A stretch of 64,000 bases of DNA. Source: Myxococcales bacterium. GTDB taxonomy: Bacteria > Myxococcota_A > Polyangia > Polyangiales > Houyiibacteriaceae. Position numbers and translations under genes: made by a program. The notes beneath the pieces are model-generated. The model was not told the DNA's origin, did not search any database, and saw only the letters and a program-made list of their open reading frames with translations. The stretch covers positions 1 to 64,000 of the forward strand of contig JAHEEE010000008.1 of the NCBI GenBank assembly GCA_024640845.1, given 5' to 3'. Below are positions 32,062-44,412 of this stretch, in pieces. The first letter of the stretch is position 1. Each line of letters starts with the position of its first letter.

Positions 32062-33738
32062 CTAGATGAACATGTGCCACTGCATGATGAAGGAGTTGCC
32101 CTTGCGGCTTTCGACGGTTCCGCCGTTGTCCGCGTTATAGAAGATCGGCCGATTGCGATACTCGATGGTCACCTTGGCGTTGTGGCGGTGGATGAACAGG
32201 TTGAGGCCGACGCCCACGTGATGCATCCATTCTTCCAGCGCCTGGAAGCCCGAGCCCTGCCAGTTCACGTAGGGCTGAAACTTCAAATTTTTGGCGACGT
32301 GTCCGGGCATCATCACCCCGAACTCGGAGTACAGGCTGTGACCCGTGCCGATCATCGGATACTGGTTGCCAGTCCCGAGTGTCGTGGTTGAAGAGGTACC
32401 CGTGGCGGGGTTCGCGATCCCAACGAGGCGTAGGTTGTTCGGACCGTAGCTCTGATACTGATAGACCCCGTACCAGGTGACGGAACCGCCATCGTCGCCC
32501 CCGAATGGATGGTCGAGGAATAGGTCGGTCGAGCCGATCAGCACCGGCACGGCTTTGGAGGCGCCGGTGGCTTCGTCCGTCACGTACTGCGCTCCGTGGG
32601 GATGGGCGTAGCCTCCGAGGCCCCAGTTGAACACCTTCTTGGCCCCGAGGTAGGTCCCAACCGTGTAGGGGAGGACATTGGACTCCTCATCGAGGAACTG
32701 GAACATGAAGTAGGCCGCGTACGCCCATGCATTGGTGTAACGATAGTTCCCGGTCGCGCCAGCCGCGATCGGGGGGTTCAAATTCGTTGGCGGATCTCCA
32801 GTCGTGGCGCGTGCCGGCGTATCGACGTCAAACGGCGTAAACGGCCGGGTGACAGCGACGCGATAGTCGAAGAGCCCGAACTTTCCTTTCGCATAGATCC
32901 CGAATTGGCGTGCGAACTGGTCCTCCAGCTCGATCAATGGCCAGTTCATGATCGGGGCATCGAGGCTCATCAACGTGATGGTGCTCGCGTTGGTCTGGCG
33001 AGAGATGCCGTTCCAGTAAATCAGACCGCCGCCAAGGAAAAGGGCTTTGTTCCTGCTCAACTGGAACTCCACCCAGGCATCGTGGACGAAGATCTGCGGC
33101 TTCCGCGCATTCCGGAAGGTCTGGTTGTTGATGCCGAAGTGAAACAACAAAAACGTGCGCGGGAAGATCTGACCGAACATCAAGAAACGAGCGCGGCGGA
33201 TCAGGATGTCTTCGTACCAATCATTGGTGTCCCCCAATACCTCGCTGCCTGGGTTCAACTGAATCGCGCGGGACCAGATCTGAAGCCACGTGGCGATTCG
33301 AAAGTAGAGCGTCCCGTCGTCGTTGAGGCTCCACTGGAGCTTCTTTGCCTGTCCATCCGCTGACACGAGTCCCACACCGGTGCCCGGCACAGGCTCGGGC
33401 TCCGGCGCCAACTTGCGCCCCGCGAGCGCCATCTGGCGCTTCGCTTCCTCGAGGTCCCGCTCCGCCTGCTCAATCCTCCGCTGGGCCTCGTCGAGCTGCT
33501 GCTCGGTGAGCATCTCGTCCGTGACGCCCAGGTCGCTGTCGACTTCGGTCGTCGTCTCGAACGCGTCCACTTCCGTGGCGTCGTCCGCAGCGTCGATCGC
33601 CGTCTCGCCCGGCACTACAAGGACTTGTGCAGCCGCCCATGCTGGAACGAGACCAGCCATTGCAATCGCTGCGACGGCAGCTATCCAGGCGCACCTCGCA
33701 TGTTGCGGCTCACGGCCGCCTTTCAGTTCTTCCCTCAT
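32062..33738 (-). CDS. Outer-membrane porin with coiled-coil N-terminus (module-linked)
   Basis: A 558-residue outer-membrane beta-barrel. A signal peptide (cleavage near AWAAAQ) is followed by an acidic stretch, then a coiled coil (TEQQLDEAQRRIEQAERDLEEA region, ~78-110), then a phosphate-selective-porin-like barrel with alternating aromatic strands and a terminal aromatic/hydrophobic strand (QWHMFI). I chose the ATG at 33738: an AGGAGG at 33744-33749 is 5 nt upstream, whereas the GTG at 33741 is only 2 nt away. It is the last gene of the acsA-DUF4212-symporter-porin operon, so it likely passes small carboxylates across the outer membrane; this role is inferred. Confidence 0.82.
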   Translation of the reverse strand: MREELKGGREPQHARCAWIAAVAAIAMAGLVPAWAAAQVLVVPGETAIDAADDATEVDAFETTTEVDSDLGVTDEMLTEQQLDEAQRRIEQAERDLEEAKRQMALAGRKLAPEPEPVPGTGVGLVSADGQAKKLQWSLNDDGTLYFRIATWLQIWSRAIQLNPGSEVLGDTNDWYEDILIRRARFLMFGQIFPRTFLLFHFGINNQTFRNARKPQIFVHDAWVEFQLSRNKALFLGGGLIYWNGISRQTNASTITLMSLDAPIMNWPLIELEDQFARQFGIYAKGKFGLFDYRVAVTRPFTPFDVDTPARATTGDPPTNLNPPIAAGATGNYRYTNAWAYAAYFMFQFLDEESNVLPYTVGTYLGAKKVFNWGLGGYAHPHGAQYVTDEATGASKAVPVLIGSTDLFLDHPFGGDDGGSVTWYGVYQYQSYGPNNLRLVGIANPATGTSSTTTLGTGNQYPMIGTGHSLYSEFGVMMPGHVAKNLKFQPYVNWQGSGFQALEEWMHHVGVGLNLFIHRHNAKVTIEYRNRPIFYNADNGGTVESRKGNSFIMQWHMFI

Positions 33739-33768
33739 CACAACCTCCTCTCAGCTTCGACTCAGCCG

Positions 33769-35577
33769 CTAGTGCATGCCGGTAGGTGCTTTCGCTCCGA
33801 CGGGAACGCGGATGTGCTCCACCATCTCCTGAACTTCCTGGGGCGGCGGCGGCGTGAACCGACCCACCACGAGCGCAACGACGAAGTTGAGCAGCATGCC
33901 AAGTGCGCCGATGCCCTCAGGCGAGATGCCGAACCAGAACTGGTCTGGCGTGCCACCCATGAACTTGAAGTAGATGATGTACGCCGCGGTGAAGATGATC
34001 CCCGCGAGCATGCCGCTGATGACGCCCTCACGGTTGGCCTTCTTCGAGAAGATCCCGAGGATGATTGCCGGGAAGAACGACGAGCAAGCGAGTCCGAACG
34101 CGAACGCGACGACTTGCGCCACGAAGCCTGGTGGATTGATGCCGAAGTAGCCGGCGATCAAGACCGCGACGCCCGCCGCAACACGCGCGGCAAGGAGCTC
34201 CTGCTTCTCGGTGATCGACGGGACGAACACGCGTTTGAGCAGGTCGTGGCTGATCGACGTGCTGACGACGAGCAGCAGCCCGGCCGCCGTCGAGAGAGCG
34301 GCTGCCAACCCGCCTGCAGCGACCAATGCGATGACCCACGCGGGTAGCTGCGCGATCTCGGGGTTTGCGAGCACGATGATGTCTCTGTCCACGTAGAGCT
34401 CGTTATCGCTGTCGGGATTGGGATTGCTCACGACCCGCTCTCCGTGCGCGCCCCGCTGCTCCGTGAATTCCGGCTTGCCTGCCAGGGCGTTGCCCGCGAC
34501 GTACTGGACCTTGCCGTCGTCGTTCTTGTCGACCCATGCGAGGAGGCCGGTGTCCTCCCAAGTCTTGAACCACTGCGGAATCGACTTTTGTCCCTCGACC
34601 GAGGCGTAGCTCGCACCGCTGACCGCCTCGATCAGATTGGTGCGCGCGAACGCAGCGACGGCGGGAGCGGTCGTGTAGAGCAGGGCGATGAAGAAGAGCG
34701 CCCAGCCGACGCTGCGCCGTGCGTCACGCACCTTCGGCACGGTGTAGAACCGCACGATGACGTGCGGCAGCCCGGCTGTGCCGGCCATCAGCGCGCCCGT
34801 GATGCACAACACGTCCAGCATCGATTTGCTACCCGATGTGTACTCGGCAAAACCAAGCTCCGTGTTGAGCTGGTTGAGCTTGTCCATCAGCTTGATGCTT
34901 TCGCCACCGGAGATCTGCGACCCAATCTCACCGCCGAGCGAGGCACCGAACCCGATCTGTGGGATCAGATGGTCGGTGAGAAGAATGCTGATGAAGATCG
35001 CCGGAACCAGGTAGGCGAAGATCAGCACGCAGTACTGTGCCGCCTGGGTATAGGTGATTCCCTTCATTCCGCCGAGGACCGCGTAAAAGAAGACGATCGC
35101 CATCCCGATGGCGACACCGATGTTGATTTCGACCTCGAGGAAGCGGCTGAAGACGACGCCGACACCCCGCATCTGCCCTGCCACGTAGGTGAAGGAAACG
35201 AACACAGCGCAAAGGACGGCGACGATGCGGGCGCTGTTCGAGTAATAGCGGTCGCCGACGAAGTCGGGGACGGTGAACTTCCCGAACTTGCGGAGATATG
35301 GAGCAAGCAGGAGCGCCAACAGCACGTACCCGCCGGTCCATCCCATGAGATAAACGGCACCGTCGTACCCCATGAACGAGATCAAGCCCGCCATACTGAT
35401 GAACGACGCCGCGCTCATCCAGTCAGCGCCCGTTGCCATGCCGTTGACGACGGGATGCACCCCGCGTCCAGCGATGTAGAAATCACCTGTCGTGCTCGCT
35501 CGCGACCAGATAGCGATGCCGATGTAGAGCGCGAAAGTCGCACCAACGATGAGGAATGTCCAAGCCTGTACGTCCAT
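33769..35577 (-). CDS. Sodium:solute symporter, VC_2705 type (acetate-permease-like)
   Basis: A 602-residue SSS-family transporter resembling ActP and the VC_2705 subfamily that works with a DUF4212 small subunit. Features: TTGDFYIAGRGVHPVVNGMATGAD (TM1-2 loop), GVGVVFSRFLEV, VLGGMKGITYTQAAQY, and a C-terminal acidic/basic tail. An insertion at ~318-410 between transmembrane segments contains DKNDDGKV (350-357), an EF-hand-like D-x-N-D-D-G loop that could bind calcium in a periplasmic loop. It lies between DUF4212 and the porin and downstream of acsA, arguing for uptake of acetate or a similar short-chain acid with Na+. Confidence 0.88.
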   Translation of the reverse strand: MDVQAWTFLIVGATFALYIGIAIWSRASTTGDFYIAGRGVHPVVNGMATGADWMSAASFISMAGLISFMGYDGAVYLMGWTGGYVLLALLLAPYLRKFGKFTVPDFVGDRYYSNSARIVAVLCAVFVSFTYVAGQMRGVGVVFSRFLEVEINIGVAIGMAIVFFYAVLGGMKGITYTQAAQYCVLIFAYLVPAIFISILLTDHLIPQIGFGASLGGEIGSQISGGESIKLMDKLNQLNTELGFAEYTSGSKSMLDVLCITGALMAGTAGLPHVIVRFYTVPKVRDARRSVGWALFFIALLYTTAPAVAAFARTNLIEAVSGASYASVEGQKSIPQWFKTWEDTGLLAWVDKNDDGKVQYVAGNALAGKPEFTEQRGAHGERVVSNPNPDSDNELYVDRDIIVLANPEIAQLPAWVIALVAAGGLAAALSTAAGLLLVVSTSISHDLLKRVFVPSITEKQELLAARVAAGVAVLIAGYFGINPPGFVAQVVAFAFGLACSSFFPAIILGIFSKKANREGVISGMLAGIIFTAAYIIYFKFMGGTPDQFWFGISPEGIGALGMLLNFVVALVVGRFTPPPPQEVQEMVEHIRVPVGAKAPTGMH

Positions 35578-35604
35578 TGTTCTCTCCTTCTTCGACTCGA
35601 ACGA

Positions 35605-35901
35605 TTAGTCCTCGTGTACGTCAAACTCTCTATCGAGCTTGTTCATCAAACGTGTGTAGAGGAAGATCAGAACCACGAACACGTAGATCGAGCCCTGCTG
35701 CGCAAACCAGAAGCCGAGCTTGAAACCAGTGCCGGGGATCGTGTACTCGTCCAATGCGCCAACCCATAGGATCCCTGCGCCGTAGGAGACGACCCACCAG
35801 ACGGCCAGTAGGATTACTAAGAGCCGGAGGTTTCTCTTCCAGTAGCGATCGGCGACGTCTTGGGTGTGTCTCGCACTGCGCGCTTCTTCCGAATCAGTCA
35901 T
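35605..35901 (-). CDS. DUF4212 sodium:solute symporter small subunit
   Basis: A 98-residue protein with two transmembrane helices (~27-48 and ~66-86). It carries the family features: YWKRNLRLL in the first cytoplasmic segment, GAGILWV, a FKLGFWFAQQGSIYVFV second helix start, and a charged C-terminus (RLMNKLDREF). DUF4212 members are encoded next to VC_2705-type symporters and are thought to be their small subunit; here the symporter follows after 27 bp. It lies 30 bp after acsA in the same operon. Confidence 0.92.
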   Translation of the reverse strand: MTDSEEARSARHTQDVADRYWKRNLRLLVILLAVWWVVSYGAGILWVGALDEYTIPGTGFKLGFWFAQQGSIYVFVVLIFLYTRLMNKLDREFDVHED

Positions 35902-35931
35902 TGTTGCTCCTGTTTCTCCGCCTGCAGCGGC

Positions 35932-37848
35932 TCAGTCCTTTTTCAGTAGCGCCTCGACCACGGATGGGTCGGCGAGCGTCGAAATGTCTCCGAGTTGGTT
36001 TCCCTCGCCGGCAGCGATCTTGCGGAGGATTCGCCGCATGATCTTGCCCGAGCGCGTCTTCGGTAGGCCGCCTACGACCCGAATCTCGTCCGGCGTCGCA
36101 ATGGGACCAATCACCTGGCGCACCTGTTCTTTCAGAGCGCCCTGAAGCTCACCTGGCTCGTAGTCGCCGCCCGCGATGGGTACGACGAATGCGAAGATGC
36201 CCTGGCCCTTGATCTCGTGTGGGCAGGGTACGACCGCGGCTTCTGCGACAGCTTGGTGCGCGACGAGGGCGCTTTCGACCTCGGCGGTGCCCAGTCTGTG
36301 TCCGGACACGTTGATCACGTCATCGACGCGACCCGTGATCCAGTAGTAGCCATCCGCGTCACGCTTGCACCCGTCGCCGGTGAAGTAGTGGGGCGGGTAC
36401 TGCGAGAAGTAGGTCTCGAGGAAACGTTTGTGGTCGCCGTGGATCGTGCGCGCTTGCCCCGGCCAGGGGTGCTTGATGCAAAGGTAGCCGCTGACGTCGT
36501 TGCCCTCGATGACCTTGCCCTCTTGATCGACGAGGATCGGCTCGATGCCGAACAGTGGAAAAGTTGCAGAGCCGGGCTTGGTCGGCGTCGCATGTGGAAG
36601 CGGGCTAATCAAGATCCCGCCGGTTTCCGTTTGCCACCAAGTGTCGACGATTGGCACCTTTCCGTTGCCAACCACCTCGTTGTACCAATTCCAAACCTCG
36701 GGGTTGATGGGCTCGCCGACCGTGCCGAGGACGCGCAACGACTCGCGGCTCGAGCCCTTTACCGGCTCCGAGCCCTCTCGCATGAGGGCTCGGAGCGCGG
36801 TGGGCGAGGTGTAGAGCGTCGTCGCGCCGATGTCGTCGATGACGTTCCAGTACCTACTTGCGTCCGGGTATGTCGGGACCGATTCGAACATGACGGTGGT
36901 GACGCCGTTCGCCAGCGGTCCGTAGATGATGTAGCTGTGGCCGGTGATCCATCCGATGTCTGCGGCGCAGAAGTGAATGTCGTCCTCGGAGATGTCGAAG
37001 ACGTACTTGAAGGTCGATGCCACATAGGTGAGGTAGCCCGCGGTGGTGTGAACCAGACCCTTCGGCTTACCCGTCGACCCGGAGGTATAGAGAATGAAGA
37101 GAGGGTCTTCGGAGGCCATCCACTCCGAAGGGCAGGTGATGCGCTGTTGGGCGGTGGCTTCGTGCATCCAGATGTCGCGACCATGCTCCATTTTCGTTTC
37201 GGCGTCGGTGCGCTGGACGACCAGCACCTTCTCCACGACTCCGAGGCCCTCGACTGCGTCATCGGTGATTCTCTTGAGTGGAATTCGCTTCGAGCCGCGG
37301 AGACCCTCATTGGCAGTGACGACGACCTTCGCTTGTGCGTCGATGATGCGGTCACGGAGTGCGTCGGCACTGAACCCGCCGAATACGATCGAATGCACGG
37401 CACCGATTCGAGCGCAGGCGAGCATTGTATAGGCGAGCTCCGGGATCATCGGGAGATAGATGCAAACTCGATCGCCCTTTCGAACACCAAGCGATTTCAG
37501 AGTGTTTGCGACCCGCCCGACCTGAATTTTCAGCTCCGCGAAGGAGATGTGTTGATACTCGCCCGGTTCGTCCGCGACGAAGATGATCGCCGTCTTTTCC
37601 GGGTTCTTCGCCACGTGCCGGTCGACGCAGTTGACGGTGGCATTGAGTCGCCCTCCGCCGAACCAGACGAACTCGCCCGGTCCATGCTCTTCGAAGACGC
37701 TGTGCGGTTCGTAGAACCAATGCAGCTCTTTGCTCTGCGCCTTCCAATAGTCGAGGTTGTCGGTAAGGCTGTAGTGGTAGAGGGCCTGGTAGTCCTCCAT
37801 GTCAGCAATACGTCGTCTTGTATCGAGCGTCGGTTGTGAGAGTGTCAT
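35932..37848 (-). CDS. acsA: Acetyl-CoA synthetase
   Basis: A 638-residue AMP-forming ligase that activates acetate to acetyl-CoA through acetyl-AMP. It has the P-loop-like YTSGSTGKPKG, VDTWWQTETG (acetyl/ATP region), GRVDDVINVSGHR (hinge) and the C-terminal PKTRSGKIMRR with the Lys that is acetylated for regulation in known Acs enzymes. Length is typical (~650). A strong sigma-54 promoter (37883-37898) lies ~35 bp upstream of the ATG at 37848, and the regulator gene precedes it, so it is very likely activated by the neighbouring CbrB/NtrC-type regulator. It heads the acsA-DUF4212-symporter-porin operon. Confidence 0.96.
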   Translation of the reverse strand: MTLSQPTLDTRRRIADMEDYQALYHYSLTDNLDYWKAQSKELHWFYEPHSVFEEHGPGEFVWFGGGRLNATVNCVDRHVAKNPEKTAIIFVADEPGEYQHISFAELKIQVGRVANTLKSLGVRKGDRVCIYLPMIPELAYTMLACARIGAVHSIVFGGFSADALRDRIIDAQAKVVVTANEGLRGSKRIPLKRITDDAVEGLGVVEKVLVVQRTDAETKMEHGRDIWMHEATAQQRITCPSEWMASEDPLFILYTSGSTGKPKGLVHTTAGYLTYVASTFKYVFDISEDDIHFCAADIGWITGHSYIIYGPLANGVTTVMFESVPTYPDASRYWNVIDDIGATTLYTSPTALRALMREGSEPVKGSSRESLRVLGTVGEPINPEVWNWYNEVVGNGKVPIVDTWWQTETGGILISPLPHATPTKPGSATFPLFGIEPILVDQEGKVIEGNDVSGYLCIKHPWPGQARTIHGDHKRFLETYFSQYPPHYFTGDGCKRDADGYYWITGRVDDVINVSGHRLGTAEVESALVAHQAVAEAAVVPCPHEIKGQGIFAFVVPIAGGDYEPGELQGALKEQVRQVIGPIATPDEIRVVGGLPKTRSGKIMRRILRKIAAGEGNQLGDISTLADPSVVEALLKKD

Positions 37849-37882: not shown

Positions 37883-37898
37883 CGCAAGAGATGTACCA
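37883..37898 (-). promoter_or_regulatory. Sigma-54 (-24/-12) promoter of the acsA operon
   Basis: Read on the minus strand: TGGTAC-ATCTC-TTGCG. It matches the consensus TGGCAC-N5-TTGC[AT] with exact spacing between the GG and GC dinucleotides (10 bp). Predicted start of transcription is near 37872, leaving a ~24-nt leader before the acsA ATG at 37848. The gene directly upstream encodes a sigma-54-dependent activator, which fits. Confidence 0.82.
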
Positions 37899-37911: not shown

Positions 37912-37998
37912 CGAAACGACTTCGAAACTTCGTCTAACGCGTCGCGGCAAGCGTTACGATTCGTAGCAAGACGCTACGCTTCGAAACGTTACCGAAAC
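37912..37998. promoter_or_regulatory. Repeated CGAAAC elements and an inverted repeat (candidate activator sites)
   Basis: Upstream of the sigma-54 promoter, CGAAAC occurs at 37912-37917, 37923-37928, 37982-37987 and 37993-37998; two of these are TTCGAAAC. Between them is an imperfect inverted repeat GTTACGA-T-TCGTAGC (37953-37967). Their position 15-115 bp upstream of the -24 element suits an enhancer-binding activator. Assignment to the neighbouring regulator is inferred. Confidence 0.45.
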
Positions 37999-38009: not shown

Positions 38010-39344
38010 CTATTCGGGTGGTCTTGAGTCGCGTCGTGGAATGCCCATGCGTTGGCGGCGTTCCCAAAGCGTCTTGCGGCTGATGCCGAGCTTCTTCGCA
38101 AGCTCGGTCTCGCTGAGCTCATGCTGATGCGAAAGGACGAAGCGGCGAAGGTAGCCTTCGAGTGAAGGGTCCTCGCCAAAACCTTCAGGGTCAATTTCCT
38201 CGGGCGCATTCGAAGAGGGCAAGCCGAGCAGAGCTTCGGTGATCGGACCTGATTCGTGCAGGATCACCGCGCGCTCTATGGCATGTTGGAGCTCTCGCAC
38301 GTTCCCTGGCCACTTGTAGCGTTTCATCGCCGCGGCGGCGCTGTCGCCGAGCTCGAGCGGCGGCTTTCCAAGCTTCGCGGCGGCCCTCGCGAGGAACACT
38401 TCTGCAAGCGCCAAGATGTCGTCCACCCGCTCGCATAGGGGCGCCAGCTTGATTTCCATGACCTTGAGGCGGAAGTAGAGATCCGTCCGAAATTCCTGGT
38501 GTTCGACGAGCTTCGGGAGGTCGCGATGGGTCGCCGCAATCAGCCGGATGTCGACCGCCTCGGCCTTGCGGGCGCCGACGCGGCGGACCTCGCGCTGTTG
38601 TAGCATCCGCAGCAACCGGGCTTGCGCCGCCGAGGTGAGCTCACCGATCTCGTCGAGAAATAGCGTCCCCCCGTTTGCGGCGTGCACAAGCCCTTCTTGG
38701 CGGCTCAGTGCGCCAGTGAACGCGCCCTTCTCGTGCCCGAATAGCTCGGATTCGAGGAGTGTGTCGGGAATCGATGCACAGTTGACGGCCACGAACGCGC
38801 CGGTCCGCCCGCTATGGTTGTGTACCGCCCGCGCAATGAGCTCCTTGCCCGTGCCCGACTCACCAAGGATGAGCACCGTGGCTTCCGTTGGGGCGACCTT
38901 GCGGGCCCATCGCAGGGCTTCTCGCATCGGGCTCGATTCGGCGGCGACGATTTCGTATGGGTCGCCGACGCCGTCAGAGTCGCCGGTCCGGTTGAGCGCA
39001 TGGTGACGGAGCACCCGAGTGACGGCTGTGCTGAGCGCTTCGGGCTCGAACGGCTTGGAGAGATAGTCTGCCGCGCCGCGCTTCATCGCATCGACCGCAG
39101 CGCTCACGGAACCATACGCCGTCATCACGATCACGGGGATCTGCCCGACCCGCTCGATGAGCACGTCGCCGGTCTCGCCAGTCAATCTCACGTCCGTGAT
39201 CACGAGGTCGAAGGACTGCAGATGCTGCCTCTCCGCCTCCGGAACACCGCCGACGTCCACGACCTCGTGCCCGTCACGCGTGAGGATACGCTTGATCTCG
39301 GCTCGAATGACACGCTCGTCCTCCACCAAAAGGATCTTCGCCAC
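38010..39344 (-). CDS. NtrC/CbrB-type sigma-54-dependent response regulator
   Basis: A 444-residue three-domain activator. The receiver domain (1-~118) has the phosphoacceptor Asp51 in TDVRLTGE and Lys97 in LSKPFEP. The AAA+ domain has Walker A GESGTGKE (161-168), the sigma-54-contacting GAFTGA loop (207-212) and Walker B LFLDEIGE (~228-235). A Fis-type helix-turn-helix closes the protein (SETELAKKLGISRKTLWERRQRMG). It sits 40 bp after the SSS-domain sensor kinase gene, so it is the cognate regulator, as CbrB is to CbrA. The adjacent sigma-54 promoter of acsA is its obvious target. Confidence 0.92.
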   Translation of the reverse strand: MAKILLVEDERVIRAEIKRILTRDGHEVVDVGGVPEAERQHLQSFDLVITDVRLTGETGDVLIERVGQIPVIVMTAYGSVSAAVDAMKRGAADYLSKPFEPEALSTAVTRVLRHHALNRTGDSDGVGDPYEIVAAESSPMREALRWARKVAPTEATVLILGESGTGKELIARAVHNHSGRTGAFVAVNCASIPDTLLESELFGHEKGAFTGALSRQEGLVHAANGGTLFLDEIGELTSAAQARLLRMLQQREVRRVGARKAEAVDIRLIAATHRDLPKLVEHQEFRTDLYFRLKVMEIKLAPLCERVDDILALAEVFLARAAAKLGKPPLELGDSAAAAMKRYKWPGNVRELQHAIERAVILHESGPITEALLGLPSSNAPEEIDPEGFGEDPSLEGYLRRFVLSHQHELSETELAKKLGISRKTLWERRQRMGIPRRDSRPPE

Positions 39345-39384: not shown

Positions 39385-42249
39385 TCAATTTTCATAGGCT
39401 TTGAGGGTGACTGTGAAGCGGCTGCCTCGTGGGGAGCGCGGCTCGTGGGTGAGCGAGCCGCCGAAGCGCTCCACGATTTGGCGGGACAACGAGAGACCGA
39501 GACCCGTGCCCTGGCCATCGGGCTTGGTGGTGAAGAACGGCTCAAACACGCGCTCCCGAAGCTCCTCCGGGATCCCGGGCCCTTCATCGTCTACCTCGAC
39601 GCGGACCGTCCCATTGTCGAGACGTGTACGGACGTACACCGTCGCGCCCCTCGGGCATGCCTGGCGCGCGTTGTTGAGCAGGTTGACGAGGACTTGCGTC
39701 AGACCGTCGGGTGTAGCCATGGCAGGCCGGTCGGCGCTCAGGTCGAGATCGATGCGACAGCCTTCCATTTCGAGCTTGGCAAGCTCGACTGCGGCCTTCA
39801 CGACGCGCGCCACCGGAATGGCCTGCAACTCCACCGGCGTTTCGTCGCGTCGACTGAAAGCGAGCAAGCTCTGCACGATGCCGTGAATTCGCTTCGCTTC
39901 GTCGACGATGATCCCCAAGCGCTCGTGGGCATCCTCGGCGCCAGGGTCGCTAGCGAGATTCTTGGCGACCATGAGGATTCCCGTGAGCGGGTTCCCGACC
40001 TCGTGCGCGACGCCCGACGCGAGGGTACCGATCGACGAAAGCCGATCTTTGTGTGCCACGTGTCGCTCCAACTGGCGAAGCGCGGTAATGTCTTCGACCA
40101 CGAACACGCGCCCCTCCTCTGGCTCGCCCGGAATGATCGCGGTCTGCGCGCGAAGCTCTATCTTCCTGTCACCCAAGTCGTATTCACGCTCGATCGCCGA
40201 GCCGGACGGCTGATGCGCCAGCTCGTCGAACAGCGGCCACCACGGGCTCGGGATCTCGCACAATGGGTTGCCGCAGATGTCGTCTTCTTCGAGTCCCGAC
40301 ATGCGTTCGAGCTGAGCGTTCCAAACGACGACGTCTTCGTGGTCATCAACCGTGCAGACACCCACAGGGAGCTCCGACATGAGCAGCGACAAGTAACGGC
40401 GCGCGGCGTGGGCCGGCGACGGACGCTGCTCGGCTCCGAGGGAATCGAGCTCTCGAAACGCGCGGAGGCGTTCGGCGAGCGCGTCTGTTCGCATTGGTCG
40501 GCCACCCTGTACGTAGGTGCGCGCCGCGAGGGGGCCGATTCTTTCGCTGAGTCGCCCTTCGAGCTCGGTGATCAACCGCAGTAGCTCGGGGCGATCGCGC
40601 GGCGGCCAATATACGTCCGCGGCGGCTGCGGCCCCATAGATCTCGTCAATCGCGGTGCGTTTTCCGACGTACGATGTCAGGCGCTCGAGGAGGGCTTCAG
40701 CCGAATCGGGTACCTGCAGCAATCGAGTCACTCGGGGCTCGCGGCATGCCTCGGCGGCGTTGCGTTCCTCGGTGGAACGGGTGGTCAGTAGCGAGACGCC
40801 AACGAAGACGAACGCGTGGGCCGTGAAGCTAAGCCAGATGGTGGGGCCGCGCGCGGCGGGGTCCATGAAGCCAAACAACGCGTAGAGGCCGGAAACGTCG
40901 ACCTGGATCCCGAACAGCGGGGTTGCGGTGAGGACCGCCCAGGAGGCGGCCCCGACGATGAGGCCCCAGAGCACACCTTCTCGCGTCGCCCGCCGCCAAA
41001 AGAGAGTTCCGATCAGGCCGGGCAACAAGTGGGTGACTGCGAGGAACGACGCAAGGCCGAGGTCGACGAGCGATCGCGTGCGCGGAAGCGTGAAGTGGAT
41101 GAGCAACCCGGCCAGGATGACTGCGATGATCGTCGACCGGCGGAAGACCGCCCACCGGGTCAACAGCGACTGCGGCGACGGCAAGAGCAATGGCGGAACG
41201 AGATAGTGTGCCACCATGCCGCTCAGCGCGATCGAGGATACCAGAATCATCGCGCTCGCCGCGGACACCGCGCCCAGGAATGCGAGCACTTGAAGCAACG
41301 CGGAGCTCTGCACCGCAACCAACACATACACATCGGGGCTCATGCCCGGCGTTGCGAGCTCGCTTCCTGCCCACAGCAGAATCGGCACCGGGAGGTTGAT
41401 CGCAAATAGGTAGAGGGGGAGGGCCCAGCGGGCGGTCTTCAGGCTGCGCGGTCCCGGGCGCTGGACGAAAGCGACGAAGAACTGACGCGGCAAGAGAAAC
41501 GCCGCGCACATCGTGACGAACACGAGGGCGATCCAGCTTTCGCCCATCACCGGGCTGGTCATGTTCTCGATCAGCTCGGGATGCTGTTCGAGGTGTGCAC
41601 TGAGCCCTTGAAAGCCGCCGAAGACCGCGAATAGGGCGGCCGTCCCGACGACCAGAAGCGCGAACAGCTTGAAGACACTCTCGAAAGCGAGGATCGCGAT
41701 CAGGCCTGGCCGGTGAGCTCGCCCATCGGCGTAGCGAACACCCAGCACGGCCGCGAAAGCGCTCAGCAGAATCGCGTACACCGAGCCAAGCTCCTCGGTC
41801 GGTTGCTCCCCCACCAGGATGGCGGCGCCGCCCGCAACGGCGCGAAGCTGAAGCGCGATGTAAGGGAGTAAGCCGGCGACCATGAAGATCGAGACGGCTG
41901 CACCGAGCACTCGGCTCTGATAGCGGAAGGCGAAGAGGTCCGCGATGCTTCCGAGACGGTAACGGTCGACGAGCTCGGCGACGGGTGCCCACAAGATCGG
42001 GATCGCGATACACGACAGCGTCACCCCGAAATAGACCGCAAGGAAATCGTAACCCTCGGCGGCAGCGAAACCGACGCTTCCGAAGAGGGTCCAGGTGGTG
42101 GCGTACACGCCGAGCGCGAGCGCGTAGCTGAAACGGTTCCGCCCGAGCCTACCCCAGCGGGACGATCGCTCCACGATCTCGGAGCCGGCGATGTAGAGGC
42201 CCAGTAGGGCCGCCGCGAGGAAGAACAGGACGAAGTGATTAAGCTGCAT
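39385..42249 (-). CDS. Sensor histidine kinase with N-terminal sodium:solute symporter domain (CbrA/CrbS-like)
   Basis: A 954-residue membrane kinase. Residues 1-~490 form an SSS/SLC5-type transporter domain with about 13 helices (starts LNHFVLFFLAAALLGLYIAGS; RYRLGSIADLFAFRYQSR after helix 3). Residues ~510-605 form a linker of STAC-like position, ~615-725 a PAS domain (LPVGVCTVDDHEDVVVWNAQ), then HisKA with His749 in GVAHEVGNPL, and HATPase_c with NLLNNARQA, DDEGPGIP and GTGLGLSLS. Such kinases (CbrA, CrbS/MxtR) control carbon and acetate use. The ATG is inside the last codons of an unannotated 55-residue membrane-protein gene. It likely senses transport flux or substrate of the acetate/propionate module. 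Confidence 0.92.
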   Translation of the reverse strand: MQLNHFVLFFLAAALLGLYIAGSEIVERSSRWGRLGRNRFSYALALGVYATTWTLFGSVGFAAAEGYDFLAVYFGVTLSCIAIPILWAPVAELVDRYRLGSIADLFAFRYQSRVLGAAVSIFMVAGLLPYIALQLRAVAGGAAILVGEQPTEELGSVYAILLSAFAAVLGVRYADGRAHRPGLIAILAFESVFKLFALLVVGTAALFAVFGGFQGLSAHLEQHPELIENMTSPVMGESWIALVFVTMCAAFLLPRQFFVAFVQRPGPRSLKTARWALPLYLFAINLPVPILLWAGSELATPGMSPDVYVLVAVQSSALLQVLAFLGAVSAASAMILVSSIALSGMVAHYLVPPLLLPSPQSLLTRWAVFRRSTIIAVILAGLLIHFTLPRTRSLVDLGLASFLAVTHLLPGLIGTLFWRRATREGVLWGLIVGAASWAVLTATPLFGIQVDVSGLYALFGFMDPAARGPTIWLSFTAHAFVFVGVSLLTTRSTEERNAAEACREPRVTRLLQVPDSAEALLERLTSYVGKRTAIDEIYGAAAAADVYWPPRDRPELLRLITELEGRLSERIGPLAARTYVQGGRPMRTDALAERLRAFRELDSLGAEQRPSPAHAARRYLSLLMSELPVGVCTVDDHEDVVVWNAQLERMSGLEEDDICGNPLCEIPSPWWPLFDELAHQPSGSAIEREYDLGDRKIELRAQTAIIPGEPEEGRVFVVEDITALRQLERHVAHKDRLSSIGTLASGVAHEVGNPLTGILMVAKNLASDPGAEDAHERLGIIVDEAKRIHGIVQSLLAFSRRDETPVELQAIPVARVVKAAVELAKLEMEGCRIDLDLSADRPAMATPDGLTQVLVNLLNNARQACPRGATVYVRTRLDNGTVRVEVDDEGPGIPEELRERVFEPFFTTKPDGQGTGLGLSLSRQIVERFGGSLTHEPRSPRGSRFTVTLKAYEN

Positions 42250-42406
42250 TATCTCTGCGGTGAACCAGCGCGACCACTGCGATCATCGACAGCCAGAAGG
42301 CGAAGGGAGACCACCAGGTTTGGAGCCAGAGGGCGCGCACGGGCGTCGCAATCAGCACGATCGCGACGACGAAAAGGAGAAGTGCTCGCTCCTGCTCTCT
42401 GTTCAC
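42239..42406 (-). CDS. 55-residue two-helix membrane protein preceding the sensor kinase
   Basis: A short gene read on the minus strand from GTG at 42406 to TAA at 42239. The product opens MNREQERALLLFVVAIVLIA, has a first hydrophobic helix (~8-20), a Trp-rich loop (RALWLQTWWSPF), a second helix (~33-47) and the tail VHRRDNAA. The GTG directly follows the TAA of prpE (TAAGTG) and the 3' end overlaps the start of the sensor kinase by 11 bp, so translation of the three genes is tightly coupled. It recalls the small partner proteins (DUF3311, DUF4212) encoded beside SSS transporters; here the partner is an SSS-domain kinase. Function is unknown; a small subunit of the sensor's transporter domain is the working guess. 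Confidence 0.78.
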   Translation of the reverse strand: MNREQERALLLFVVAIVLIATPVRALWLQTWWSPFAFWLSMIAVVALVHRRDNAA

Positions 42407-44293
42407 TTAGGCGTATCCAATCGCCTGCAGACGTCCGGTGACCTCTTCGAGGACGATGGGATCGTCGATCGTCGCAGGCATCTTCCATTCGGAGCGGTCC
42501 GCGATCTTCTTCATCGTGCCGCGTAGGATCTTGCCGGAGCGTGTCTTCGGGAGGCGCTGGACGACGATCGCCGTCTTGAACGCCGCCACGGGACCGATCG
42601 CACTACGCACCATTTGGATGACCTCGGAAACGATGTCGTGTTGAGGCCGATCGACGCCCGCGTTCAACACCAAGAAACCGAGTGGGATCTCGCCTTTGAG
42701 TTGGTCGGCGACGCCGATGACGGCGCACTCGGCTACGTCGGGGTGTGCAGCGATGACCTCTTCCATGCCGCCAGTGGAAAGCCGATGTCCAGCGACGTTG
42801 ATGATGTCGTCGGTGCGCGACATGACGTAAACGTAACCGTCCTCGTCGATATAGCCTGCGTCCGCGGTCTTGTAGTAGCCCGGGAACTCCGTCATGTACG
42901 ACTGCAAGAAGCGCTCGTCGTCGTTCCACAGCGTTGGCAGCGAGCCGGGCGGAAGGGGAAGCTTCACCACCAGGGCCCCTGTCTTCCCAGCTTCCACCGG
43001 TCGGCAGGCCTCATCGACCACCTGTACGTCCCACCCAGGCACGGCGACCGTCGGCGACCCGTGCTTCACCGGAAGATGCTCGATTCCCAGGCAGTTGGCG
43101 CAGATCGCCCAGCCCGTTTCGGTCTGCCACCAGTGGTCGATCACCGGAACACCGAGCTTGTCTTCTGCCCACTTCAGAGTGTCGGGGTCGGACCGCTCGC
43201 CAGCCAGGAACAAGGAGCGGAGTGTGCTCAAGTCGTAGTTGCCGATCAGCGAGCCGGTGGGGTCTTCCTTCTTGATCGCGCGAAATGCGGTTGGTGCGGT
43301 GAACATGCAGTTGACACCGTGGTCTGAGATCACGCGCCAGAACGCGCCTGCATCGGGGGTTCCGACGGGCTTGCCCTCGTAGAGGATCGTAGTGTTTCCA
43401 TTGAGCAGAGGTCCGTAGACGATGTACGAGTGCCCGACGACCCAGCCCACGTCTGATGCGGCCCAATACACCTCGCCCGGTTGGACGCCGTATACGTTCC
43501 GCATCGTCCACTGAAGCGCCACCGCGTGACCGCCGTTGTCTCGAACGACTCCTTTGGGGATGCCGGTCGTCCCGGACGTATAGAGGATGTAGAGCGGATC
43601 GGTTGCTTCAACCGGGACGCAATCATGCGGCTTGGCCGCGGCCGTCGCGTCCTGCCAGGACGAGTCACGGCCTTCCAGCAATTCGCACTCGCAGGATTCC
43701 CGCTGACGTATGATGCAGGTGCGGGGCTTGTGCTTCGCCATGACGATCGCTTGGTCGAGCAGCGGCTTGTATTCGATGACCCGCGTGCCCTCGATGCCGC
43801 AGGAAGCGGATACGATCGTCTTCGGCTCGGCATCGTCGATGCGCGTCGCGAGCTCCTGCGGAGCAAAGCCCCCAAACACGACGGAATGAATGGCCCCCAA
43901 CCGTGCGCACGCGAGCATGGCGATTACCGCCTCCGGAATCATCGGCATGTAGATGAGAACCCGGTCGCCTTTTGTAACGCCGTCGGCAGCAAGTGCACCA
44001 GCAAAGAGCGCAACTTCGGCGCGCAATTGTCGATACGTATACGTGCGTCTCGTATGTGTGACCGCGCTGTCGTAGATGAGCGCAGCCTGATTGCCGCGCT
44101 TCTCCACATGGCGGTCCAGCGCGTTGTAGCAAGTGTTGAGCTTGGCCCCGGGGAACCATCGATAGAACGGCTTGTTCGAGTCATCGAGGACTCGATCCCA
44201 GCGCTCGATCCAATCGATGTCTTCAGCGACTTCACCCCAAAAGCCTTCTGGGTCCTGGAGTGAACGTTTCCTGATTTCTGTTGTTGATCCCAT
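42407..44293 (-). CDS. prpE: Propionyl-CoA synthetase (PrpE-type acyl-CoA synthetase)
   Basis: A 628-residue AMP-forming ligase closest to PrpE. It has YTSGTTGIPKG, IDHWWQTETGW, the hinge SRTDDIINVAGHR and the C-terminal PKTRSGKILRGTMKKIAD, with IDDP close to the end as in PrpE. I chose the ATG at 44293, preceded by GGAG; an in-frame upstream start at 44347 adds 18 residues without family support. It heads the leftward operon prpE-55aa-sensor kinase-regulator, so the regulator genes are co-expressed with propionate activation. It may also accept acetate or acrylate. Confidence 0.9.
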   Translation of the reverse strand: MGSTTEIRKRSLQDPEGFWGEVAEDIDWIERWDRVLDDSNKPFYRWFPGAKLNTCYNALDRHVEKRGNQAALIYDSAVTHTRRTYTYRQLRAEVALFAGALAADGVTKGDRVLIYMPMIPEAVIAMLACARLGAIHSVVFGGFAPQELATRIDDAEPKTIVSASCGIEGTRVIEYKPLLDQAIVMAKHKPRTCIIRQRESCECELLEGRDSSWQDATAAAKPHDCVPVEATDPLYILYTSGTTGIPKGVVRDNGGHAVALQWTMRNVYGVQPGEVYWAASDVGWVVGHSYIVYGPLLNGNTTILYEGKPVGTPDAGAFWRVISDHGVNCMFTAPTAFRAIKKEDPTGSLIGNYDLSTLRSLFLAGERSDPDTLKWAEDKLGVPVIDHWWQTETGWAICANCLGIEHLPVKHGSPTVAVPGWDVQVVDEACRPVEAGKTGALVVKLPLPPGSLPTLWNDDERFLQSYMTEFPGYYKTADAGYIDEDGYVYVMSRTDDIINVAGHRLSTGGMEEVIAAHPDVAECAVIGVADQLKGEIPLGFLVLNAGVDRPQHDIVSEVIQMVRSAIGPVAAFKTAIVVQRLPKTRSGKILRGTMKKIADRSEWKMPATIDDPIVLEEVTGRLQAIGYA

Positions 44294-44412
44294 GACGTCT
44301 TTCTCCGGCGCGGCAGAATACAGGCGCCCTGAAAGGAAAGCGAGCACGATCCGCGCGAGCGCGGGTTGACTTCGGCGGCGACATAGGCAGCATTCCTGCT
44401 GGAGAAATTGCG

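Follow-up and report, generated by a model that had tools for sequence, protein, structure and literature searches.

A CbrX-like small membrane protein gene upstream of a CbrA-like sensor kinase in Myxococcota

The short open reading frame (ORF) between a prpE-like gene and a sensor kinase gene in the window (the whole 64,000-nt stretch of DNA that was analysed) is a true protein-coding gene, and judged by sequence homology its product belongs to the CbrX family. The explanation that best accounts for all data together, and which we consider very probable, is that it encodes a CbrX-family subunit of a CbrA-like kinase, with coupled translation of the two genes, packing of the peptide on the SLC5 domain, and a role in a sigma-54 dependent carboxylate circuit. 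The small ORF and the adjoining genes are located as follows:

42407..44347, minus strand: propionate/acetate--CoA ligase-like (prpE-like) gene; its stop abuts the start of the small ORF, and this order is kept in the genus
42239..42406, minus strand: gene with a GTG start for a CbrX-like membrane protein of 55 aa with two helices
42239..42249, minus strand: 11-nt overlap of small ORF and kinase gene (kinase ATG at 42249), kept in 9 of 9 genomes of the genus
39385..42249, minus strand: CbrA-like SLC5-STAC sensor histidine kinase (954 aa), assigned by Pfam and by alignment to 10ed_A

The small ORF starts with the GTG at 42406, its stop ends at 42239, and the 55-aa product is VNREQERALLLFVVAIVLIATPVRALWLQTWWSPFAFWLSMIAVVALVHRRDNAA. 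A first-pass annotation of this DNA had proposed a two-helix ORF of 55 residues without giving the strand, and an AlphaFold2 model agrees with this proposal, showing a hairpin of two helices (residues 3-27 and 33-54) at moderate confidence (pLDDT 74.5, pTM 0.41). It had also placed the GTG directly at the prpE stop and the 3′ end 11 bp into the kinase gene; both positions are exact, with a gap of 0 nt to the prpE-like stop, which ends at 42407. The prpE-like gene is probably part of the same operon. A Foldseek search with the model of the small ORF gave no match, which is uninformative, since a peptide of this length is too short to be matched decisively by its fold.

Open frames of this size can also arise by chance in GC-rich DNA, and the shortness of the ORF, its GTG start in the window genome and long open frames on the opposite strand would be compatible with such an origin. 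Conservation of the ORF refutes this reading, for which we see virtually no room. Nine congeneric genomes share the length of 55 aa and the 11-nt overlap without exception, and the start codon is ATG in eight of the nine and GTG in the window. Variable columns fall on codon positions 1/2/3 in the numbers 17/7/45, and dN/dS is 0.10 in frame (0.05 for the kinase) but above 2 in both shifted frames. The frame contains no stops, and related kinases also have the ORF upstream; these are the two points on which the first-pass annotation had let its proposal depend. Homology to an experimentally observed protein, as described below, also speaks against a chance frame. As a baseline for the gene arrangement we used 136 genes of at least 250 aa from the window and 14 Myxococcota loci. 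Of these genes, 15 are preceded by an abutting two-helix ORF (45-95 aa): 11 encode SLC5 kinases and three encode SSS transporters, whose partners are of the DUF4212 or DUF485-like kind, while the remaining case is spurious.

The family assignment is based on a profile of 24 Myxococcota sequences, none of them from Pseudomonas, that was searched against 177,635 PDB sequences. CbrX of P. putida (10ed chain X) was the best match with an E value of 1.3e-5, while the next match had a value of 0.21. The single sequence of the small ORF also ranked 10ed_X at the top, though weakly (E 0.01). A profile that already contained CbrX reached 9e-16 against 10ed_X, but was discarded as circular in favour of the CbrX-free profile. 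The conserved positions of the CbrX-like peptide are P22, R24, W27, W38 and R50, with the motifs P-x-R-x-x-W and WWxPF, and the P/R/W positions are kept across kinases that share merely about 35-47% identity. In the PDB sequence set, chain X of 10ed carries the label "MFS transporter", which could mislead annotation of the CbrX family.

Small two-helix proteins also accompany SSS transporters, and one such pair is encoded downstream, with the symporter at a distance of about 4 kb:

35605..35901, minus strand: gene for the small DUF4212 protein that accompanies the SSS symporter; no kinship to the CbrX-like ORF
33769..35577, minus strand: SSS (SLC5) symporter (PF00474)

The first-pass annotation had pointed to a kinship with the partners DUF3311 and DUF4212, and the size and two-helix shape of the small ORF, together with the SSS symporter nearby, could suggest that it serves this symporter (as a DUF3311, DUF4212 or DUF485 type partner) and not the kinase. 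A DUF4212 partner for this symporter is already encoded immediately upstream of it, however. The small ORF adjoins the kinase even at loci without a detected SSS gene in the vicinity (L086, for example), and in the phylum and class samples it gave no strong match in any genome without a kinase. The kinship itself was not borne out: profile comparison gave probabilities below 1% for all three families, namely 0.7% for DUF4212, 0.5% for DUF3311 and 0.2% for DUF485 (YjcH), with no Pfam match to PF13937, PF11755 or PF04341, respectively, and a search against Pfam and NCBIfam revealed nothing above noise. We regard a partner of the symporter as very unlikely.

The kinase has, by domain search and alignment, the CbrA-like make-up of SLC5, STAC, PAS, HisKA and HATPase domains. 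PAS, HisKA and HATPase were assigned by Pfam, while the SLC5/STAC part (residues ~1-590) was assigned by the alignment to P. putida CbrA (10ed_A; E 8e-93, residues 19-586). Foldseek assigned an SLC5 fold to this domain, with the complexes of human SGLT1/SGLT2 with MAP17 as best matches. Lys196 at the Na2 site of CbrA corresponds to K194 and is invariant among the aligned kinases. We compared the histidine pocket of CbrA (Y51, S53, W55, A56, F71, Y75, K196, F248, F406), and six of the nine residues are identical in the window kinase. Since S53, A56 and F248 are replaced by T, a ligand other than histidine is plausible. An assignment as histidine sensor was considered but not favoured, as the neighbouring genes suggest carboxylates and the pocket has these three exchanges.

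Single-sequence searches detected the small ORF in all nine kinase-bearing congeners and in 0 of the 10 without a kinase. One kinase-lacking congener (G014) gave a weak match (E 0.035) inside a frame of 606 codons, which was counted as noise. Scanning of contigs with a single kinase query picked up merely four congeners. At the level of the phylum (377 genomes; profile search, E 1e-4), the small gene was found in 10 of 12 genomes with the kinase and in 0 of 365 others (Fisher p 5e-18), and in the class sample 20 of the 25 genomes with a kinase gave strong matches, compared with 0 of 264 others. Thus no strong match without a kinase was seen in the phylum and class samples of Myxococcota. Because most positive genomes contributed to the profile, the informative part of these counts is the empty negatives together with genome G532, which was held out of the profile and has the small gene with an 11-nt overlap to the kinase. 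CbrX-family two-helix ORFs end near the kinase start for nearly all Myxococcota SLC5 kinases examined; upstream of the kinase of G309 no CbrX-like ORF was found. In congener G013 (L033/L082) the kinase match stops at residue 897 and no response regulator adjoins the kinase, unlike in other congeners for which downstream sequence is available. Two loci (L046 and L049, from G427 and G416) encode a long D/R/G-rich low-complexity repeat tail of varying length after helix two.

Outside Myxococcota, a plasmid of Amphritea (Oceanospirillales) has the same gene order with an 11-nt overlap and a sigma-54 regulator. A diverged two-helix ORF is present at plasmid kinases of Cupriavidus, Azoarcus, Paracoccus and Neorhizobium, and the profile of these diverged ORFs matched the Myxococcota profile with 92% probability (E 8e-7). 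These comparisons show that the CbrX-like partner also exists outside the Pseudomonas family, with remoter relatives in beta- and alphaproteobacteria. Ten plasmid kinases, among them RpuS of S. fredii, have no CbrX-like ORF upstream. On the Azoarcus plasmid pAZKH (L065), the annotated kinase start (locus position 2193) falls within the SLC5 match, whose own start is at about 2001 or earlier, and the annotated kinase probably lacks the first helices. The first-pass annotation considered the small ORF as unannotated and widely missed, which is partly right: the equivalent ORF carries the PGAP label "hypothetical protein" in Amphritea, Paracoccus and Azoarcus, while cbrX of P. putida is annotated, as PP5704 (PMC6591292). 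The Myxococcota CbrX-like profile could name many such "hypothetical protein" genes.

In P. putida, cbrX was described in 2019 as a gene with a 17-nt overlap and translational coupling to cbrA (PMC6591292). A cryo-EM study from 2026 showed that CbrX forms a hairpin which lies against TM3 and TM8 of the CbrA SLC5 domain (PDB 10ed; PMC13022988). This complex of homologous proteins supports the first-pass view of a small partner coupled to an SLC5-domain sensor, and also means that the idea of a small subunit had already been published. It was nevertheless conceivable that the small ORF is a leader whose translation is needed for the start of the kinase, with the peptide sequence being irrelevant. 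The conserved 11-nt overlap fits this reading, as does the finding that a frame-restored peptide of different sequence maintained CbrA expression and levels in P. putida (PMC6591292). In addition, P. putida grew on histidine without CbrX, whose role the cryo-EM study described as unresolved (PMC13022988). In Myxococcota, selection at the amino acid level over diverged kinases, as seen from the dN/dS of 0.10 and the conserved P/R/W positions, argues against coupling as the only function. The structure, in which CbrA carries bound CbrX, points the same way; coupling could still occur alongside. We consider a pure leader function improbable, and the purifying selection suggests that the peptide itself matters.

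The phylogeny of the kinases adds to this picture. The tree comprises 40 SLC5 domains and one symporter; its root is unsure and the sample uneven, the proteobacterial members being mainly plasmid-borne. Kinases with a CbrX-like ORF lie on one side of a branch supported 98/95, kinases without any small ORF lie on one side of another branch (99/96), and those with a diverged ORF fall between the two groups. The simplest reading, given the unsure root and the uneven sample, is a single loss of the small ORF in the CrbS/RpuS-like branch. We lean slightly towards the view that the CbrX-type subunit is an ancient and general part of SLC5-STAC kinases in Myxococcota and several proteobacterial classes, that it was lost once in CrbS/RpuS, and that it has a conserved function as a protein (e.g., holding the SLC5 dimer or coupling transporter to kinase) instead of being a coupling leader of Pseudomonas only.

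Downstream of the kinase, the genes and sites that may form the output of the system are:

38010..39344, minus strand: CbrB/NtrC-type response regulator (Pfam Response_reg, Sigma54_activat, HTH_8)
37962..37978, minus strand: palindrome CGTAGC-N5-GCTACG, in a conserved block upstream of the promoter in five congeners
37884..37898, minus strand: sigma-54 −24/−12 promoter-like site (TGGTAC-N5-TTGC) at a distance of 50 nt from the start of acs, shared by all 5 congeners examined
35932..37848, minus strand: acetyl-CoA synthetase-like gene (acs), AMP-ligase family by similarity, first gene of the putative target operon
32062-37848, minus strand: putative acs-DUF4212-SSS-porin operon, adjoining the two-component genes

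The distance between the response regulator gene and the acs-DUF4212-SSS-porin genes is 161 nt. The order kinase, regulator, acs/SSS is found repeatedly within the genus, and variants of it occur in other Myxococcota. Versions of the operon are present at loci L084, L085, L088, L090 and L091, and in the equivalent region of L087 (G132) a DUF485 (YjcH-like) partner precedes the SSS gene in place of DUF4212. The palindrome is a candidate binding site for the response regulator and, together with the sigma-54 site, a probable target of the CbrB-like regulator. The genus and a few relatives have the sigma-54 site; a search of the regions preceding acs or porin in the distant loci L087, L088, L090 and L091 did not reveal such a promoter. 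Gene order and these sites suggest a sigma-54 system that responds to carboxylates and drives the adjacent acs-DUF4212-symporter operon.

We propose the following model. The CbrA-like SLC5-STAC sensor kinase would have a small subunit of the CbrX family, encoded by the ORF, and both are probably made by coupled translation, because the stop of the small ORF and the start of the kinase overlap by 11 nt, with cbrXA of P. putida as precedent. By homology to the CbrX-CbrA complex, the peptide is probably embedded in the membrane as a helical hairpin whose two ends face the cytoplasm, lying against the SLC5 domain as CbrX does on TM3/TM8, and it most likely stabilises or orients this domain, perhaps at a dimer interface. 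The SLC5 domain may bind or transport a small metabolite and pass its state through STAC to the kinase, as proposed for CbrXA. The kinase would then phosphorylate the sigma-54 response regulator encoded next, which, as suggested by synteny and the conserved site, may activate the acs-DUF4212-SSS operon from the −24/−12 promoter. The neighbouring genes suggest a short-chain carboxylate as the likely cue, with the sensor turning on carboxylate uptake and activation. That kinase and peptide work as a transporter-like complex is plausible. A signalling role of the peptide is unproven even in P. putida, since CbrA levels were kept with the altered peptide and CbrX is dispensable for growth on histidine.

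The small-subunit idea is thus known for Pseudomonas, and the new part is the occurrence of CbrX-like genes outside this group. A review from 2022 described CbrAB as unique to Pseudomonadaceae (PMC8871633), and in the literature on CbrX and CbrAB we did not find a wider distribution of CbrX-like genes, which could still have been published. As the family occurs outside Pseudomonadaceae and is absent from one supported branch of the kinases, it offers a natural comparison of transporter-kinases with and without the subunit. Purifying selection on the wider family speaks for a function of the peptide itself.

Several known systems can be compared to the locus. MAP17 (PDZK1IP1) of human SGLT1/SGLT2 is also a small membrane protein bound to an SLC5 protein, but this is an analogy only: MAP17 has one transmembrane helix and is eukaryotic, unlike the bacterial small ORF. 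The DUF4212, DUF3311 and DUF485 (YjcH) partners resemble the small ORF as two-helix proteins encoded beside an SLC5-type protein, but they accompany transporters and not kinases, and have no detectable sequence kinship to it. CrbS/CrbR and RpuS/RpuR share with the window system an SLC5-STAC kinase that governs carboxylate use (acetate via acs, pyruvate via MctP); the related kinases sampled form a separate branch and have no small ORF upstream, and CrbR and RpuR are LuxR-type regulators, unlike the sigma-54 NtrC-type regulator of the window. The closest likeness is to CbrX of P. putida, a two-helix peptide of similar length (55-58 aa) with detectable sequence homology, whose gene also lies just upstream of and overlaps an SLC5-STAC kinase gene that is followed by an NtrC-type sigma-54 response regulator. 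The two systems belong to different phyla and the overlap is 17 nt in P. putida and 11 nt here; in the window the small ORF probably shares an operon with a prpE-like gene, and the putative neighbouring target is acs-DUF4212-SSS, where P. putida has crcZ.
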